From: Marinomonas sp. SBI8L
Lineage (GTDB): Bacteria; Pseudomonadota; Gammaproteobacteria; Pseudomonadales; Marinomonadaceae
Direction of reading: 5' to 3'
Assembly (NCBI RefSeq): GCF_001624705.1
Contig: NZ_JSEO01000006.1
Location: 1 to 64,000, forward strand
Length of the DNA stretch: 64,000 nt
Shown here: positions 25,653 to 56,093 of the stretch, in pieces
How positions within the stretch are numbered: the first letter of the stretch is position 1
Layout of the letters: each line of letters starts with the position of its first letter
Notes under the pieces: model-generated
Databases searched by the model: none
Seen by the model: only the letters and a program-made list of their open reading frames with translations
What the model was told of the DNA's origin: nothing
Position numbers and translations under genes: made by a program

Positions 25653-25725
25653 ATGAGTCTCTATCTTTAATACAAACGCACAAGCCCTTGAGTAATAAGC
25701 AAGGTATTGGCCATAAAGTTACAGA

Positions 25726-25792
25726 CTTCATAATCAAGAATTTAAGGCTCTTGGTAGAAACTCCCAAACCATATCATTGGGATTATACGAAG
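25726..25792 (-). promoter_or_regulatory. Adenine riboswitch in the add leader
   Basis: The minus strand carries the full purine aptamer: P1 CTTCGTA / TATGAAG, P2 with loop TGATATGG, J2/3 GTTTCTACC, P3 with loop GCCTTAAA, and J3/1 GATTATG. The ligand-reading base (position 74 in xpt/add numbering) is U, at 25733, the adenine-type base. It is nearly identical to the Vibrio vulnificus add riboswitch. AGTCT at its 3' end can pair with AGACT next to the start codon region, which supports a translational on-switch. It ends 73 bases before the ATG. Confidence 0.95.
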
Positions 25793-25847
25793 CAATTTCG
25801 CGGCTAAATTAACATGTTGAACCAAAGCTGGCAATCATAAATCAAGC

Positions 25848-48834: not shown

Positions 48835-50592
48835 TCATTCAGTACTGATTGTTAAACTTCTTTCAAAGTTATCTTGATCCCCTGTACTGTCACTCACTGT
48901 CAAAGTCACTTTATAATCACCAGCGACAGCATAAGTATGAACAGGGTTAACTAGGTTTGAATTTGTTCCATCACCAAAGTCCCACAACCAAGTATCTACT
49001 GTTCCTGTACTTTGGCTATTATCTGTAAAGGTAACAGTAAGCTTATCTTTATTGGTATTAAAATGGCTAAGTACACCTTCCTCAAAAAGCTTAATTTTTA
49101 CCGCTTTAAAAGCGTCTTCAACATCTGATTCAGAAAAGCCATTATTGACGGCTGATTGCTCAATACAAGTTGCAGCCTGAGTTAAAGTCGATAGATTCGT
49201 CCAACAATTTCTTGCAGCATGAATAATGATTTTATAGCTATCTTCTATCCCCCATTTACTTGTTAATAAATAAAAAGGATAAGAAATCATGCCTATTCGT
49301 TTATAATAATCAGCACCTGCATCGTCATAATCGAAAAAACTATCAATAGCGCCAACTTCTGTTTTTATCTTATCTAAACTACGACTGCTAGAGCGACTCT
49401 CTTCTCCATGAATCCAATTTAATTGCCCTGTATATTCATATTTAGCTAACACGCCAGATATATCAGAAAAAGCTTCATGCAAAGTGAATGCATCAGTACT
49501 TAATTCTGATTCAAATGCTTTGAGTGAAGAGATATTACTTAACACTCCATGGGCAACCTCATGGGCAATGATATCAAGAGCCACCATCTTAGTTTTATCC
49601 ATTATTCCATTTAGGTTCGCATATACTCCATCCCAATAAACAACATCAATGAGATTATTTTCTTCACCATAATGCGCTCTTAACCTTATTTTATCTTCTA
49701 AAGGCGGCTCACCTAGATATTTTAAATAAGTATCGTACACTTCTGTTCCATAAAACATTGCATCGTTTAAAGCAGAGTATGACCATGCACCGTGTTCATC
49801 CCTCACTCTAGGGACTTCAAATGAAAAGTTTTCAGGAGCCATTTCATCACACAAAAACGAAAAAGCGGGATAATCGGCTTCGTTAACTATATTTGCTTTT
49901 CCATTCTTAGAGTTTGCTTCCCAGTTAGCATCTTTGCCATTCGCCATATCAGTAACAGCGACTAATCCATTGTCATAAACACATGTGCCTCCTCCTAAGT
50001 CAGAACGGAAGGCTTCAATTTTTGGTCTATCATTAGTACTCAGGCCTCCGTAGTACCATGCGCCATCACGTGTGACACCATCGCCAGCACTAGGGTGGTC
50101 ATCACCTGTATTTTTTAAAGCATCTGCAATTCCCCCAGGACCTGAAACGAGTGTATTACCGATAAAGTCATGAAATTTAATAACACTAGGCGTCCCTTCT
50201 TCTTCATCCTCATTTATTGGATACATTAAAAAGGCGCTGGTATTAGCTGGGATGGGCGTATTGTCAGGAATCGTGACTTTAAAATCATTTGAAGCAACTG
50301 AATTTAACCAAGCACCACCATTTTTATGGTTTGATGCATCCGCCCAATATAAGCGAACACTAGTCACTTGTTCATCAGCCACATTGGTTTGCTGCAAATG
50401 TAATGTGCCACCTATTTCATCTGTAGATGAATCTAAATCCCTAAAATAATGAGGAGATGCGATTAAATTAATCGGAGTGTTCGTTACTGGATCACTGTCT
50501 GATGAGCCTCCACCACAAGAGACAAGCGTAATACTAACGACTAAAATATATGATGCTTGATTGCAACGAAAAGAAGAAAAATCCATTTTCAC
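48835..50592 (-). CDS. M4-like (thermolysin clan) lipoprotein peptidase with PKD domain, copy 1
   Basis: 585 residues. Lipobox LVSC gives Cys26. A non-standard N-terminal region to about 300 replaces the usual FTP/PepSY propeptide. HEVAHG (344-349) is the HExxH zinc site; LHEAFSDISG provides the third ligand, Glu373. The stretch KRIGMISYPFYLL aligns with VHxSSGVxNxAFYLL of M4 enzymes, but the catalytic His there reads Tyr (429-430). PKD domain about 505-585 (WLWDFGDGTNSN). Either an altered peptidase or a non-proteolytic zinc protein on the cell surface. Adjacent paralogue at 50797. Confidence 0.85.
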   Translation of the reverse strand: MKMDFSSFRCNQASYILVVSITLVSCGGGSSDSDPVTNTPINLIASPHYFRDLDSSTDEIGGTLHLQQTNVADEQVTSVRLYWADASNHKNGGAWLNSVASNDFKVTIPDNTPIPANTSAFLMYPINEDEEEGTPSVIKFHDFIGNTLVSGPGGIADALKNTGDDHPSAGDGVTRDGAWYYGGLSTNDRPKIEAFRSDLGGGTCVYDNGLVAVTDMANGKDANWEANSKNGKANIVNEADYPAFSFLCDEMAPENFSFEVPRVRDEHGAWSYSALNDAMFYGTEVYDTYLKYLGEPPLEDKIRLRAHYGEENNLIDVVYWDGVYANLNGIMDKTKMVALDIIAHEVAHGVLSNISSLKAFESELSTDAFTLHEAFSDISGVLAKYEYTGQLNWIHGEESRSSSRSLDKIKTEVGAIDSFFDYDDAGADYYKRIGMISYPFYLLTSKWGIEDSYKIIIHAARNCWTNLSTLTQAATCIEQSAVNNGFSESDVEDAFKAVKIKLFEEGVLSHFNTNKDKLTVTFTDNSQSTGTVDTWLWDFGDGTNSNLVNPVHTYAVAGDYKVTLTVSDSTGDQDNFERSLTISTE

Positions 50593-50796: not shown

Positions 50797-52575
50797 TTAT
50801 TCCCCCACTGTTATCTCTTTTTCAAAACTATCATTATCCCCTGTGCTGTCGCTCACAGTGAGTTTAATTTTATAGGTTCCTGCGTTAGTGTAAGTGTGAG
50901 TTGGGTTAATAAGGTGTGAATTCTGACCATCACCAAAGTCCCAAAACCAAGCGTTTACAATGCCTGTACTTTTACTATTATCACTAAAATTAATGGTGAG
51001 GTTATTCCTATTCGAAGTAAAATGGCTTAAGACACCCTCATCAAACAACTTAATTTTAACTGTTTTAAATGCTTCCTCTACATCAGATTCAGATAAGCCT
51101 TTGTTAATTGCAGCCTGCTCGATACAAGCTGCGGCATGAGGTAATGTTGAGCGGCTAGTCCAGCACCCTTTAGCGGCATCTAGTACAACTGCATAGCTAT
51201 TATCAATTCCCCACTTATTTGTAAGAAGGTAAAATGGATAAGTAATCATACCGATTCTTAAATAATAATTTTTATCAGCATCGTCATAATCTAAATAACT
51301 TTCTATTGCTGTCGCTTCAGTTTTAATTTGATTTAATCGCCTTACCCTAGCTCTCGATTCAGCACCATGTACCCAATCTAATTTGCCTGCAAACTCAAAC
51401 TTTGCAACAACGCCAGAGATGTCACCAAAAGCTTCATGCAATGTATAGGCATCATGGCTTAATTCATTATCAAATGCTTTTAACTGTGAAATACGACTTA
51501 AGACGCCATGCCCGACTTCATGTGCGATTATGTCTAATGTGGCCATTTTACTTACATCTATGATTCCATGAATATTGACATAAGCACCATCCCAATGGGC
51601 TGTCTCATAACCTGTTGGGCTTATTTCAGGACCATAGTGGGTTCGAATTCTTATTTTGTCATCGAGAGGAGGCTCTCCAAGGTATTTAAGGAAAAAATCG
51701 TAAACAAAAGTCCCATATGACATAGCGTCATTTATAGCTGAATAGCTCCAAGCCCCGTGCTCATCTTTAATTCTAGGCACTTCAAATGAAAGGTTCGTTG
51801 GTGTTACTTCATCGCATAAGAATGAAAAGGCGGGGAAATCCACTTCATTCACAATATTCGCTTTCCCGTTAGACGAGTTTGCTTCCCAATAGGCATCTCT
51901 GCCATTGGCCATATCAGTGATAGCAACCAAACCATTGTCATAGACACAAGTACCACCACCTAGGTTAGATCTGTAAGCGGGTATTTTTGGCCTATCTTTA
52001 GTGCTTAATCCACCATAATACCAAGCGCCGTTCCTAGTTAACCCGTCACCAGAGTCTGGATGGTCATCACCTGAGTTATTTAAAGAGTCTGCTATCCCAC
52101 CAGGGCCAGATACTAAAGAATTACCAATAAAGTCATGAAATTTTATCAGATTAGACCTACCTTCAACTCCCTCAGCATTGATAGGGTAAACAAGAAACGC
52201 ATTAATCTTATTGGGCAATGAGGTATTTGCAGGAATAGTAATTTCACCGCTATCTGGTACTGTTACAGTTAGCCATGAATCACCAGATCTGTTACCAGAA
52301 AAGTCTGCCCAATACAAAGAAACTGATTCAACTTTTTCTGAACTGTTTTCTGGAACTAACAGCTGTAAATTTCCTCCGATTTCAGCAACCTCACTATCTT
52401 GATCTCGAAAAAAAATATAGGACCCTGTGCTTTGAGATGAGCTTGAGGCATTGTTACTTGTGCCAGTATCTGAAGATCCTCCACAACCAGCCAATATACT
52501 AAACAAAGAGATAGTACTAAGTTGAATGGCTAACCTTCCTTGACCGGCCGCCTTAAAGTTAAATTCCATTTTCAT
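50797..52575 (-). CDS. M4-like lipoprotein peptidase with PKD domain, copy 2
   Basis: 592 residues, clear paralogue of the gene at 48835 along its whole length, on the same strand and 204 bases away. Lipobox LAGC gives Cys31. HEVGHG is the HExxH motif and LHEAFGDISG the third-ligand region, with Gly where M4 enzymes have Ser (EAxSD). The LRIGMITYPFYLL stretch again has Tyr at the catalytic His position. PKD domain near the C-terminus (FWDFGDGQNSH). A tandem duplication of surface zinc proteins; function unknown. Confidence 0.85.
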   Translation of the reverse strand: MKMEFNFKAAGQGRLAIQLSTISLFSILAGCGGSSDTGTSNNASSSSQSTGSYIFFRDQDSEVAEIGGNLQLLVPENSSEKVESVSLYWADFSGNRSGDSWLTVTVPDSGEITIPANTSLPNKINAFLVYPINAEGVEGRSNLIKFHDFIGNSLVSGPGGIADSLNNSGDDHPDSGDGLTRNGAWYYGGLSTKDRPKIPAYRSNLGGGTCVYDNGLVAITDMANGRDAYWEANSSNGKANIVNEVDFPAFSFLCDEVTPTNLSFEVPRIKDEHGAWSYSAINDAMSYGTFVYDFFLKYLGEPPLDDKIRIRTHYGPEISPTGYETAHWDGAYVNIHGIIDVSKMATLDIIAHEVGHGVLSRISQLKAFDNELSHDAYTLHEAFGDISGVVAKFEFAGKLDWVHGAESRARVRRLNQIKTEATAIESYLDYDDADKNYYLRIGMITYPFYLLTNKWGIDNSYAVVLDAAKGCWTSRSTLPHAAACIEQAAINKGLSESDVEEAFKTVKIKLFDEGVLSHFTSNRNNLTINFSDNSKSTGIVNAWFWDFGDGQNSHLINPTHTYTNAGTYKIKLTVSDSTGDNDSFEKEITVGE

Positions 52576-53802: not shown

Positions 53803-54363
53803 CTAATGCCACTTTTTTTGCGGAGCTTGATACGATTTTATTGAACTAACCAAGGATTCTGCATCAGAGCAGTGAATCAGCATATCGGCATAATGAGGCT
53901 TTACAAATCCTGAAGAACTCATCTTGTTAATCATCTCTTTCAATAAGTCATAAAAACCGTTCACGTTATAAAACGCACAAGGTTTAGTATGATGACCTAA
54001 TTGAGCCCAAGTCCAAGCCTCAAAAATTTCCTCTAAAGTTCCTGCACCTCCAGGAAGAGCAACAAATGCATCTGCCATATCCGCCATCATAGCTTTTCTC
54101 TCATGCATATCAGCAACAACCCTTAGCTCAGTTAACCCTCTATGAGCAATTTCCCTTTCTTTCAAATGTTCTGGGATAACCCCGAAAACCTTACCTCCAT
54201 GAGCTAAAACTGAATCAGCAATGGCTCCCATTAAGCCAACTTTTCCGCCACCATAAACAAGGTCAATGCCTTGTTCAGCAAAGTAACGTCCAAGAGCTTG
54301 TGCCGCTTTAACATATTCTGGATTGTTACCATTACTTGAACCACAAAAAACCGCTATTTTCAT
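53803..54363 (-). CDS. LOG-family phosphoribohydrolase (TIGR00730)
   Basis: 186 residues. MKIAVFCGSSNGNNPEYVKA is the Rossmann start, DLVYGGGKVGLMG the nucleotide loop and LPGGAGTLEEIFEAWTWAQL the PGGxGTxxE catalytic motif of the LOG family. These enzymes release ribose 5-phosphate from cytokinin nucleotides or, in bacteria, hydrolyse AMP and similar nucleotides. The ATG at 54363 has AGGG 7 bases upstream; an earlier ATG at 54387 gives a non-family extension. Confidence 0.93.
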   Translation of the reverse strand: MKIAVFCGSSNGNNPEYVKAAQALGRYFAEQGIDLVYGGGKVGLMGAIADSVLAHGGKVFGVIPEHLKEREIAHRGLTELRVVADMHERKAMMADMADAFVALPGGAGTLEEIFEAWTWAQLGHHTKPCAFYNVNGFYDLLKEMINKMSSSGFVKPHYADMLIHCSDAESLVSSIKSYQAPQKKWH

Positions 54364-54412
54364 TCTTATTCCCTTAGATATAAGCATTCAACTATAGAAA
54401 AAATATCAGATA

Positions 54413-54781
54413 CTATTTTGCAACTTGATTTAAACCTAACTCTTTCTGTTTTGCCTTAGTCAACTTTAAAGAGACTAGACGATAAGACTCTGACAAGTAG
54501 TAGTTTAAGTCGTCATCATTATCAGAGTGACTATTAATAATTTGTATCCACTTCATACCGCGATTAGCAAAATAAGGCGCTGGTTGGTAATCTGGGTGCT
54601 GACCTAAAAAGTCAAAATTAGTATCGGATACTTTAAAAGTAATTGCCATATTCCCTTCTTTAAGCCAGCCAACTGCAAACACTTTTCCTCCGACTTTCCA
54701 CACGTCAGCATTTCCCCATTGCACAACATGGCTAGTTCCAGTGAAGCCTTGGCAAAATAGGTTAAACATCTCATTAGTCAT
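54413..54781 (-). CDS. MmcQ/YjbR family protein
   Basis: 122 residues. VVQWGNADVWKVGGKVFAVG and TFKVSDTNFDFLGQHPDY, PAPYFANRGMKWIQ, match the YjbR/CyaY-like fold of MmcQ proteins, thought to bind DNA. Cytosolic, function unproven. It lies 50 bases upstream of the LOG gene on the same strand and may be its operon partner. Confidence 0.85.
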   Translation of the reverse strand: MTNEMFNLFCQGFTGTSHVVQWGNADVWKVGGKVFAVGWLKEGNMAITFKVSDTNFDFLGQHPDYQPAPYFANRGMKWIQIINSHSDNDDDLNYYLSESYRLVSLKLTKAKQKELGLNQVAK

Positions 54782-54919
54782 GGTAATTCCTTATCAATAC
54801 TTCTCTTTATCAGGATATCAATAAAGAGAAAAGCTTAGCTAGTGAAATGAATTTGGATTGAAAATATTGACTCATCAACAAAATCAGGTAATAGTAAATA
54901 AGCTTAAATGTTTTAAGCC

Positions 54920-54989
54920 CTCTCGTATAACCCCAATGATATGGTTTGGGGGTCTCTACCAGGAACCGATAATTCCTGATTACGAAGAG
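54920..54989 (+). promoter_or_regulatory. Adenine riboswitch upstream of adenine deaminase
   Basis: Full purine aptamer on the plus strand: P1 CTCTCGTA (54920-54927) with TACGAAGAG (54981-54989, one bulged A), P2 with loop TGATATGG, J2/3 GTCTCTACC, P3 with loop CCGATAA, J3/1 GATTACG. The ligand-reading base 74 is T (54980), the adenine type. It ends 93 bases before the adenine deaminase ATG. Part of the P1 arm, CGAAGAG, can pair with CTCTTTG further on, and an 8-bp hairpin TTAATAAA / TTTATTAA (55053-55072) overlaps the AAGGA ribosome site, giving two candidate expression platforms. Confidence 0.95.
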
Positions 54990-55082
54990 TCTTGCGTTAT
55001 GCGCTTTTCTCTTTGTAACCAAACAGCCTCAGTTTACTAAGAAGATAAGTGCTTAATAAATTAGTTTATTAAGGATTCTGTC

Positions 55083-56093
55083 ATGAAAAACTTTATTGAA
55101 AAGCTACCGAAGGTAGAACTTCATTTACATATTGAAGGCACTTTAGAGCCTGACCTCATGTTTCAGCTTGCAACACGTAACAAAGTTAGCATCCCATTTA
55201 AGAGTATTGAAGAGGTTAAAGACGCCTACCAGTTTCATAATCTACAATCATTCTTAGATATTTACTATCAAGGAGCGAACGTACTCATCCAAGAGGAAGA
55301 TTTTTTTGACCTCACTTGGGCATACTTACTGCGCTGTAAAGAAGATAATGTCATTCATACTGAAATTTTCTTTGATCCTCAAACACACACTCAAAGGGGA
55401 GTTAATTTTGATATCGTGGTTAATGGCATACATAGGGCATTAGAAAAAGGCAAAACTCATCTAGGGATAAGCAGTAAACTCATTATGTGCTTCTTACGTC
55501 ATCTTGATGAAGCCTCTGCATTTGAAACACTCGGCTCTGCACTTATTCATAAAGATAAAATTATCGGGGTCGGTCTAGATTCATCTGAGTTAGGTAACCC
55601 GCCTGAAAAGTTTGAAAGAGTATTTAATCAAGCAATTAATGAAGGCTTTTTTACAGTCGCCCATGCGGGTGAAGAAGGTCCAGCAAACTGGATTACAGAG
55701 GCCTTAGATTTACTTAAGATCACCCGCATAGATCATGGCGTTCGCTGTACCGATGATGAGGAACTGGTTAAAACCTTAGCAGAAACAAGAATTCCTCTTA
55801 CCGTCTGCCCTTTATCAAATACAAAACTTAAAGTGTTTGAGAAAATGCAAGACCACAACATCATAGAGCTTATGCGTAAAGGCTTATGTGTCACCATTAA
55901 CTCTGATGATCCAGCCTACTTCGGTGGTTATATGACAGATAATTTTCTTGCGGTGGCCAACGCCCACCCAATGAGTAAAGAAGAGGCCACGCAATTTACC
56001 CTTAATGCTATTGAAGCCAGCTTTATCAGTGAAGATGAAAAAGCGAGTTTATCTAAAAAGACAAGAGACTATTTACAGTCCTTTTTAACTTGA
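55083..56093 (+). CDS. Adenine deaminase (adenosine-deaminase-like, type 2)
   Basis: 336 residues. KVELHLHIEGTLEPDLMFQL is the start of the adenine deaminase type 2 (Aah1) branch, in contrast to the DLHCHLDGS of Add. Then FFDPQTHTQRG, FTVAHAGEEGP, RIDHGVRC, LTVCPLSNTKL and TINSDDPAYFGGY. It deaminates adenine to hypoxanthine with zinc. The adenine riboswitch in its leader agrees with this substrate. AAGGA precedes the ATG. Confidence 0.94.
   Translation: MKNFIEKLPKVELHLHIEGTLEPDLMFQLATRNKVSIPFKSIEEVKDAYQFHNLQSFLDIYYQGANVLIQEEDFFDLTWAYLLRCKEDNVIHTEIFFDPQTHTQRGVNFDIVVNGIHRALEKGKTHLGISSKLIMCFLRHLDEASAFETLGSALIHKDKIIGVGLDSSELGNPPEKFERVFNQAINEGFFTVAHAGEEGPANWITEALDLLKITRIDHGVRCTDDEELVKTLAETRIPLTVCPLSNTKLKVFEKMQDHNIIELMRKGLCVTINSDDPAYFGGYMTDNFLAVANAHPMSKEEATQFTLNAIEASFISEDEKASLSKKTRDYLQSFLT

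Follow-up and report, generated by a model that had tools for sequence, protein, structure and literature searches.

The DNA analysed here, which we call the window, is a stretch of 64,000 nucleotides from Marinomonas sp. SBI8L (contig NZ_JSEO01000006.1), and it carries two purine riboswitch aptamers, one standing before the deaminase gene ade and the other before the deaminase gene add (Table 1). Both were found when the whole window was searched against Rfam with cmscan at gathering thresholds, with E-values of 1.1e-10 for the aptamer before ade and 7.3e-12 for the one before add, and no other RNA family reached its gathering score there. The initial annotation, made from the letters and their open reading frames, had placed a purine aptamer at 54920-54989, and the covariance search agrees, the match scoring far above the RF00167 cut-off of 37 bits. 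It had also proposed that two deaminase genes of one genome each stand behind an adenine-type aptamer. This holds, as the whole genome, 99.98% complete in 69 contigs, contains exactly two RF00167 sites and no third.

Table 1. Features of the two switched deaminase loci in the window
Feature	Position	Strand	Basis or remark
Purine riboswitch aptamer RF00167, adenine type	54903..55002	+	cmscan 71.6 bits
U, ligand-specificity position	54980	+	RF00167 consensus GACUAC, GAUUAC here
Segment A, P1 3' strand and tail UUACGAAGAGUCUUGCG	54980..54996	+	Common to P1 and the predicted anti-P1 hairpin
Segment B, GCGCUUUUCUCUUUGUAA	55001..55018	+	Predicted partner of A (no ligand) or C (P1 formed)
Segment C, AGAAGAUAAGUGCUUAAUAAA	55040..55060	+	Predicted to pair with B or D; ensemble folding and duplex tests
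Segment D, ribosome-site region UUUAUUAAGGAUUCUGUCAUG	55065..55085	+	AAGGA 55071-55075, start codon 55083
ade, PA0148-type adenine deaminase (predicted activity), 336 aa	55083..56093	+	NF006850, PF00962, best solved relative 3ou8
First purine riboswitch aptamer, adenine type	25711..25810	-	cmscan 76.5 bits, one-step platform (predicted)
add, adenosine-deaminase-type, 332 aa	24654..25652	-	TIGR01430 316 bits, PF00962

The aptamer before ade matches the family model over its full length (1-102 of 102) and forms a three-way junction of P1, P2 and P3, with the conserved junction letters present and the core at 54920-54989. Its P1 is best read with a single bulged A, CUC.UCGUA/UACGA[A]GAG, where Infernal places two mismatched pairs, and 80 nt separate the aptamer from the gene. 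The base expected to set ligand specificity, which we take to be position 74 in the usual numbering, is a U, as the initial annotation had stated; it is also a U in the first aptamer and in 50 of 50 related ade leaders. The aptamer itself is thus an ordinary adenine-type purine riboswitch with predicted adenine binding, and the RNA switch before ade most likely senses adenine. Its P1 and P3 are unlike those of the first aptamer, and for each of the two switches a separate set of orthologous leaders exists in other genera, so that the earlier view of the ade switch as no recent copy of the add switch stands. As a separate observation, in three ade leaders of a Vibrio subgroup (L040, L070 and L077) the P2 loop of the aptamer is longer by about 13-14 bases, which may alter the usual loop-loop contact.

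The gene behind this aptamer is of the adenine deaminase type, as had been proposed. Its product scores 550.6 bits against NF006850 (cut-off 419), a family whose name at NCBI is adenosine deaminase, and contains a PF00962 domain; its best solved relative is 3ou8 (414 bits), presumably PA0148 of Pseudomonas aeruginosa. Adenine deamination by PA0148 is the subject of the title of Goble 2011, as cited by both PMC6281700 and PMC13316717, and a passage of the latter employs the PA0148 enzyme as an adenine deaminase. Scoring over a curated cut-off and having a solved member among its relatives, the ade protein is a full-length PA0148-type adenine deaminase, its activity being predicted. The add protein is a different deaminase, 24% identical to it, and from the arrangement of the two switches we infer that the two genes may form an adenine regulon.

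The genome and the surroundings of ade hold some further features. The same genome encodes a 54% identical adenine deaminase relative without a purine aptamer (G000:C56:101427-102368, minus strand). Two genes from ade, both here and in the sister genome Marinomonas sp. MED121 (NZ_CH672434.1), lies a gene with a PF03641 domain (53803-54387, minus strand), which we take to be of the LOG type. Relatives of this type release adenine from AMP, and therefore an adenine source and an adenine sink may be neighbours at this locus. In addition, two adjacent genes on the minus strand (48835-50592 and 50797-52575) encode clearly similar predicted proteins of 585 and 592 aa, apparently a tandem duplication; by eye, these proteins look like secreted peptidases.

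The new-looking part of the ade leader is its expression platform. The initial annotation had described a hairpin, TTAATAAA/TTTATTAA (55053-55060 and 55065-55072), that touches the ribosome site. The overlap is present, the AAGGA lying 7 nt ahead of the ATG; the description is nevertheless incomplete, as this hairpin is only the last part of an arrangement of four segments, A to D. Compared side by side, the leaders show complementarity of A with B, of B with C and of C with D, so arranged that A:B competes with P1 and B:C competes with C:D. Across leaders, segment A reads UUACGAAGAG...AGYGC, segment B GCRCUUUUCUCUUUGUA and segment C AGAGAAAAGYGCUU followed by a variable part. The UUACGAAGAG of segment A is invariant in all 36 aligned leaders, out of the 49 that have B, and CUCUU[UG]G, which forms the core of segment B, occurs in 49 of 51 leaders, L027 and L060 being the two without it.

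We examined this arrangement by folding 51 leaders, with the ribosome site taken as 8 nt and the pairing among A to D averaged over the 49 leaders that have B. In the free ensembles, the mean expected pairs were 11.9 for A:B, 2.1 for B:C and 8.5 for C:D, at a P1 probability of 0.09; with P1 forced, they became 0.9, 11.2 and 6.0, respectively. The mean unpaired fraction at the ribosome site rose from 0.24 to 0.37 over the 51 leaders, opening by more than 0.05 in 30 of them and falling in none. In the window's ade leader it rose from 0.15 to 0.36, and C:D went from 13.5 to 2.2 pairs. We also shuffled the platforms in 30 rounds for 49 of the 51 leaders, omitting the two longest (L006 and L048): 29 leaders had a rising site as observed, against 3-13 per shuffled round, the mean P1 probability was 0.094 against 0.533 in the shuffles, and none of 30 shuffles of the window's leader matched the shift predicted for it. 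In this leader the free state is the more stable one by 4.0 kcal/mol (median 4.2), and the affinities of adenine aptamers are plausibly enough to offset a gap of about 4 kcal/mol.

Of the predicted steps, release of the ribosome site varies most between leaders, being predicted in 27-30 of the 51 at 37 C and in fewer at 15 C. When the site is narrowed to a 5-nt core, 27 leaders rise and 2 fall at 37 C, and 21 rise and 4 fall at 15 C. In the Moritella leaders and in MED121 much C:D persists at equilibrium with P1 forced. In transcripts that stop before D, forcing P1 brings three or more additional D-pairing bases of C into pairs with B for 29 of 49 leaders, and no leader shows the opposite, so the order of synthesis may matter; when the window's ade transcript is cut after C, however, its free state is already a mixture (A:B 4.6 pairs, B:C 9.1). 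As a yardstick, the same procedure was applied to nine add leaders. Forcing P1 freed the P1 strand from the ribosome-site region in these, and the site opened by more than 0.05 in four of the nine and closed in two, namely the window's add leader (from 0.25 to 0.16), where the model then pairs the site with other bases, and that of MED121. Since opening is seen in only four of nine add leaders, equilibrium folding is an unreliable guide to the last step for both kinds of switch.

Covariation was assessed for each of the three helices. For A:B (36 rows, 34 distinct), 91.1% of cells are paired and the covariation score of 0.117, against 0.084 after shuffling, was equalled or exceeded by 0 of 500 shuffles; the four pairs with double changes, equalled in 37 of 500, do not go beyond the shuffles. 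In the outer A:B stem there is next to no variation, which makes covariation uninformative there. For C:D (26 of 44 C-D stretches, with 5 further leaders left out as too long), 82.4% of cells are paired (equalled by 12 of 500) and the score is 0.244 against 0.189 (equalled by 1 of 500), the three pairs with double changes again lying within the shuffles (301 of 500). For B:C, counted over the 26 leaders common to both alignment sets, both the 87.4% of paired cells and the 10 double-change cells were equalled by 0 of 500 shuffles, and the two pairs with double changes, equalled in 297, are not beyond them. A third C-D alignment (11 Vibrio, A3) entered the B:C count only and was excluded from the C:D pair counts.

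One column of B, either C or U, varies with its partner in segment C (C-G in 15 leaders, U-A in 8) and partly tracks its partner in A (G-C in 17, G-U in 11, A-U in 4). A leader's own partner paired better than the mean partner from other genera in 43 of 49 leaders for A:B, 38 of 49 for B:C and 41 of 49 for C:D; in the Colwellia leaders, the own partners had no advantage over foreign ones. Because relatives repeated within a genus were treated as independent, these covariation and partner counts lend support and are not proof.

Taken together, these patterns suggest that the ade leader is a cis-acting adenine riboswitch that would switch on the translation of ade, the adenine deaminase gene, in the presence of ample adenine. 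In the proposed mechanism, without ligand, the P1 3' strand in segment A would pair with B in an anti-P1 hairpin and C would pair with the ribosome-site region D, keeping translation off. Adenine would bind and hold P1 formed, shifting the balance in the cell; B would then be freed to capture C. With B:C formed, C could not cover D, and the ribosome site would open. The enzyme would then presumably turn adenine into hypoxanthine.

Other mechanisms could be imagined for the same leader. One is a one-step translational switch in which the ribosome site is covered directly by the P1 3' strand, with no relay. The add mRNA of Vibrio vulnificus is of this type, its P1 3' strand taking a direct part, and the window's first switch is predicted to pair in this way, with 9.7 expected pairs in the free state and 0.0 with P1 forced; a short complementarity between A and D (AGAGUCUU/AAGGAUUCU) is visible even in the window's ade leader. 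However, A:D accounts for a mean of only 0.05 expected pairs over the free ensembles of the ade leaders and a negligible 0.006 in the window, these ensembles being dominated by A:B and C:D, and such a switch would leave the conservation of B and C unexplained. We thus regard direct pairing as quite unlikely for ade, and the earlier proposal that its platform differs from that of the first switch is borne out. Somewhat different is the possibility that control is transcriptional, with the A:B hairpin, or a short hairpin inside it, and a U-rich run acting as a terminator or pause site relieved by adenine. Such a run, UUUUCUCUUU, does follow directly on a short GC-rich stem in B, yet it belongs to the A:B stem itself, and segments C and D would be left unexplained. 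Moreover, a consensus scan covering 54700-55150 showed nothing like a terminator on the plus strand between 54990 and 55083, its sole plus-strand match being a 5-pair stem at 55104, within the coding region. We consider this explanation unlikely. A promoter-like site at 54867-54895 did not exceed chance (1 found, 1.5 expected).

It could also be that the aptamer is real and the platform is a fixed sequestering hairpin under little ligand control in this genome, for example after transfer. The persistence of C:D in several relatives with P1 forced (8.7 pairs in MED121) would fit this, as would degraded copies found elsewhere (L008, L032, L039 and L060). Against it, the core aptamer and segments A, B, C and D are all retained in the window and in its sister MED121, and none of the 30 shuffles equalled the window's predicted shift; this is to us the least probable of the three alternatives. 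The four leaders just named have an apparently degraded aptamer with platform parts that can still be read, apparently a case of switch decay in single lineages.

The adenine riboswitch is a main model for RNA allostery, and the pbuE riboswitch of this class follows ON logic. In the available passages of the literature, translational work on adenine riboswitches centres on one example, the add switch of V. vulnificus, where a single P4 domain holds both the ribosome site and the AUG in the free state (eLife 2018, PMC5847336; cartoon legend in PMC10907184). As these passages describe it, that switch and the proposed ade switch have in common an adenine-sensing purine aptamer, a translational ON response and a free state that hides the ribosome site and the start codon. 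The ade leader differs in having an extra segment, B, between the P1 strand and the sequestering strand, and thereby two predicted exchanges rather than one; its gene, a PA0148-type adenine deaminase, is also unlike that of V. vulnificus. Closer to home, the first switch of the window shares with the ade switch the aptamer family and the U at the specificity position, whereas its P1 strand is predicted to pair directly with the ribosome-site region. In Bacillus subtilis, pbuE has an adenine-type aptamer that acts through a terminator helix, according to the passage in PMC10907184; unlike it, the ade leader has no terminator by the consensus scan.

For marine gammaproteobacteria, a passage of PMC3223726 places Shewanella purine riboswitches before adenosine deaminase and a purine transporter. 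The ade leaders resemble these in being purine aptamers before deaminase or permease genes of such bacteria; in that passage, the two types of deaminase are not separated and no platform is described. According to a passage of PMC3766115, one or two lineages of proteobacteria have purine switches. We found no published account of the ade switch or of the relay in titles, abstract openings or passages, most subscription journals lying outside the reach of this search; on this evidence, the platform is a predicted, conserved two-exchange relay that looks new. Should the relay prove real, one kind of aptamer would work through both a direct and a relayed platform in the same cell, and nature would have set up a test of how gain, leak and speed depend on the design of the platform; adenine-controlled deaminase genes would also have spread with their sensors among marine bacteria.

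How widely the ade switch occurs depends on the search. With stricter filters, RF00167 is found in 2 of 49 Marinomonas genomes, including the window's own, and in 1 of 390 sampled genomes of the order, again the window's own. The impression of rarity given by these searches is overturned by a scan of the GTDB species collection that started from the protein and gave 140 ade relatives. Among the best 80 of these, 52 source genomes have an RF00167 match (31 of 40 and 21 of 40), and 50 have an aptamer upstream of ade itself. These 50, in which leader L014 was counted once, come from nine marine groups: 22 are from Vibrio, 10 from Colwellia, 6 from Photobacterium, 4 from Moritella, 3 from Psychromonas and 2 from Shewanella, with one each from Marinobacterium, an Oceanospirillaceae genome and MED121. 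An ade switch peculiar to the window is thereby ruled out, and its switch is a member of a widespread set. The rarity implied by the initial annotation was therefore too strong, and paired switched deaminases occur in Moritella and Psychromonas as well.

Within Marinomonas, the distribution is uneven. MED121 has both switches, and the add protein is found in the same 2 of 49 genomes, whereas a relative of ade is present in 48 of 49 (both at E 1e-40). The switched ade is 100% identical in the window and 96% identical in MED121, against 46-55% for all other Marinomonas relatives, and two copies of ade occur in the window's genome, in MED121 and in one other Marinomonas (G010). In a tree of 85 ade proteins, those of the window and MED121 pair with each other (100/99) inside 81 switched-type relatives, and four native Marinomonas proteins form a separate clade (100/100). 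Since the switches are present in only 2 of 49 Marinomonas genomes and stand beside a native, unswitched ade, the pair looks acquired, and it is most likely, judging from these sequences, that add and ade entered this Marinomonas lineage together with their switches, loss elsewhere in the genus being the less likely alternative. On the whole, we lean moderately towards the full reading, in which adenine-bound P1 would open the ade ribosome site through B:C and the gene would have been acquired with its switch. The broader claim, that an ON-type platform with two exchanges (P1 against A:B, B:C against C:D) occurs in at least eight marine gammaproteobacterial genera and moves with ade, with add under a one-step switch in some of the same genomes, seems to us evenly poised.

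Some of these genomes have more than two purine switches. Three are present in each of the four Moritella genomes and in two of the three from Psychromonas, where, judging by the stretches read, they stand before ade, add and a permease gene; the third Psychromonas genome has two. More generally, a further purine switch stands before a permease-like gene in Moritella, Psychromonas, Shewanella, Photobacterium and Vibrio (L136-L144 and L159-L165), the gene being called permease-like where the downstream frame was read and PF00860 being confirmed for L136 and L137 only. Leaders L137 and L139-L144 have a C at the specificity position, the junction being shifted in the rest and its reading unsure; a guanine sensor may therefore share genomes with the adenine sensors.
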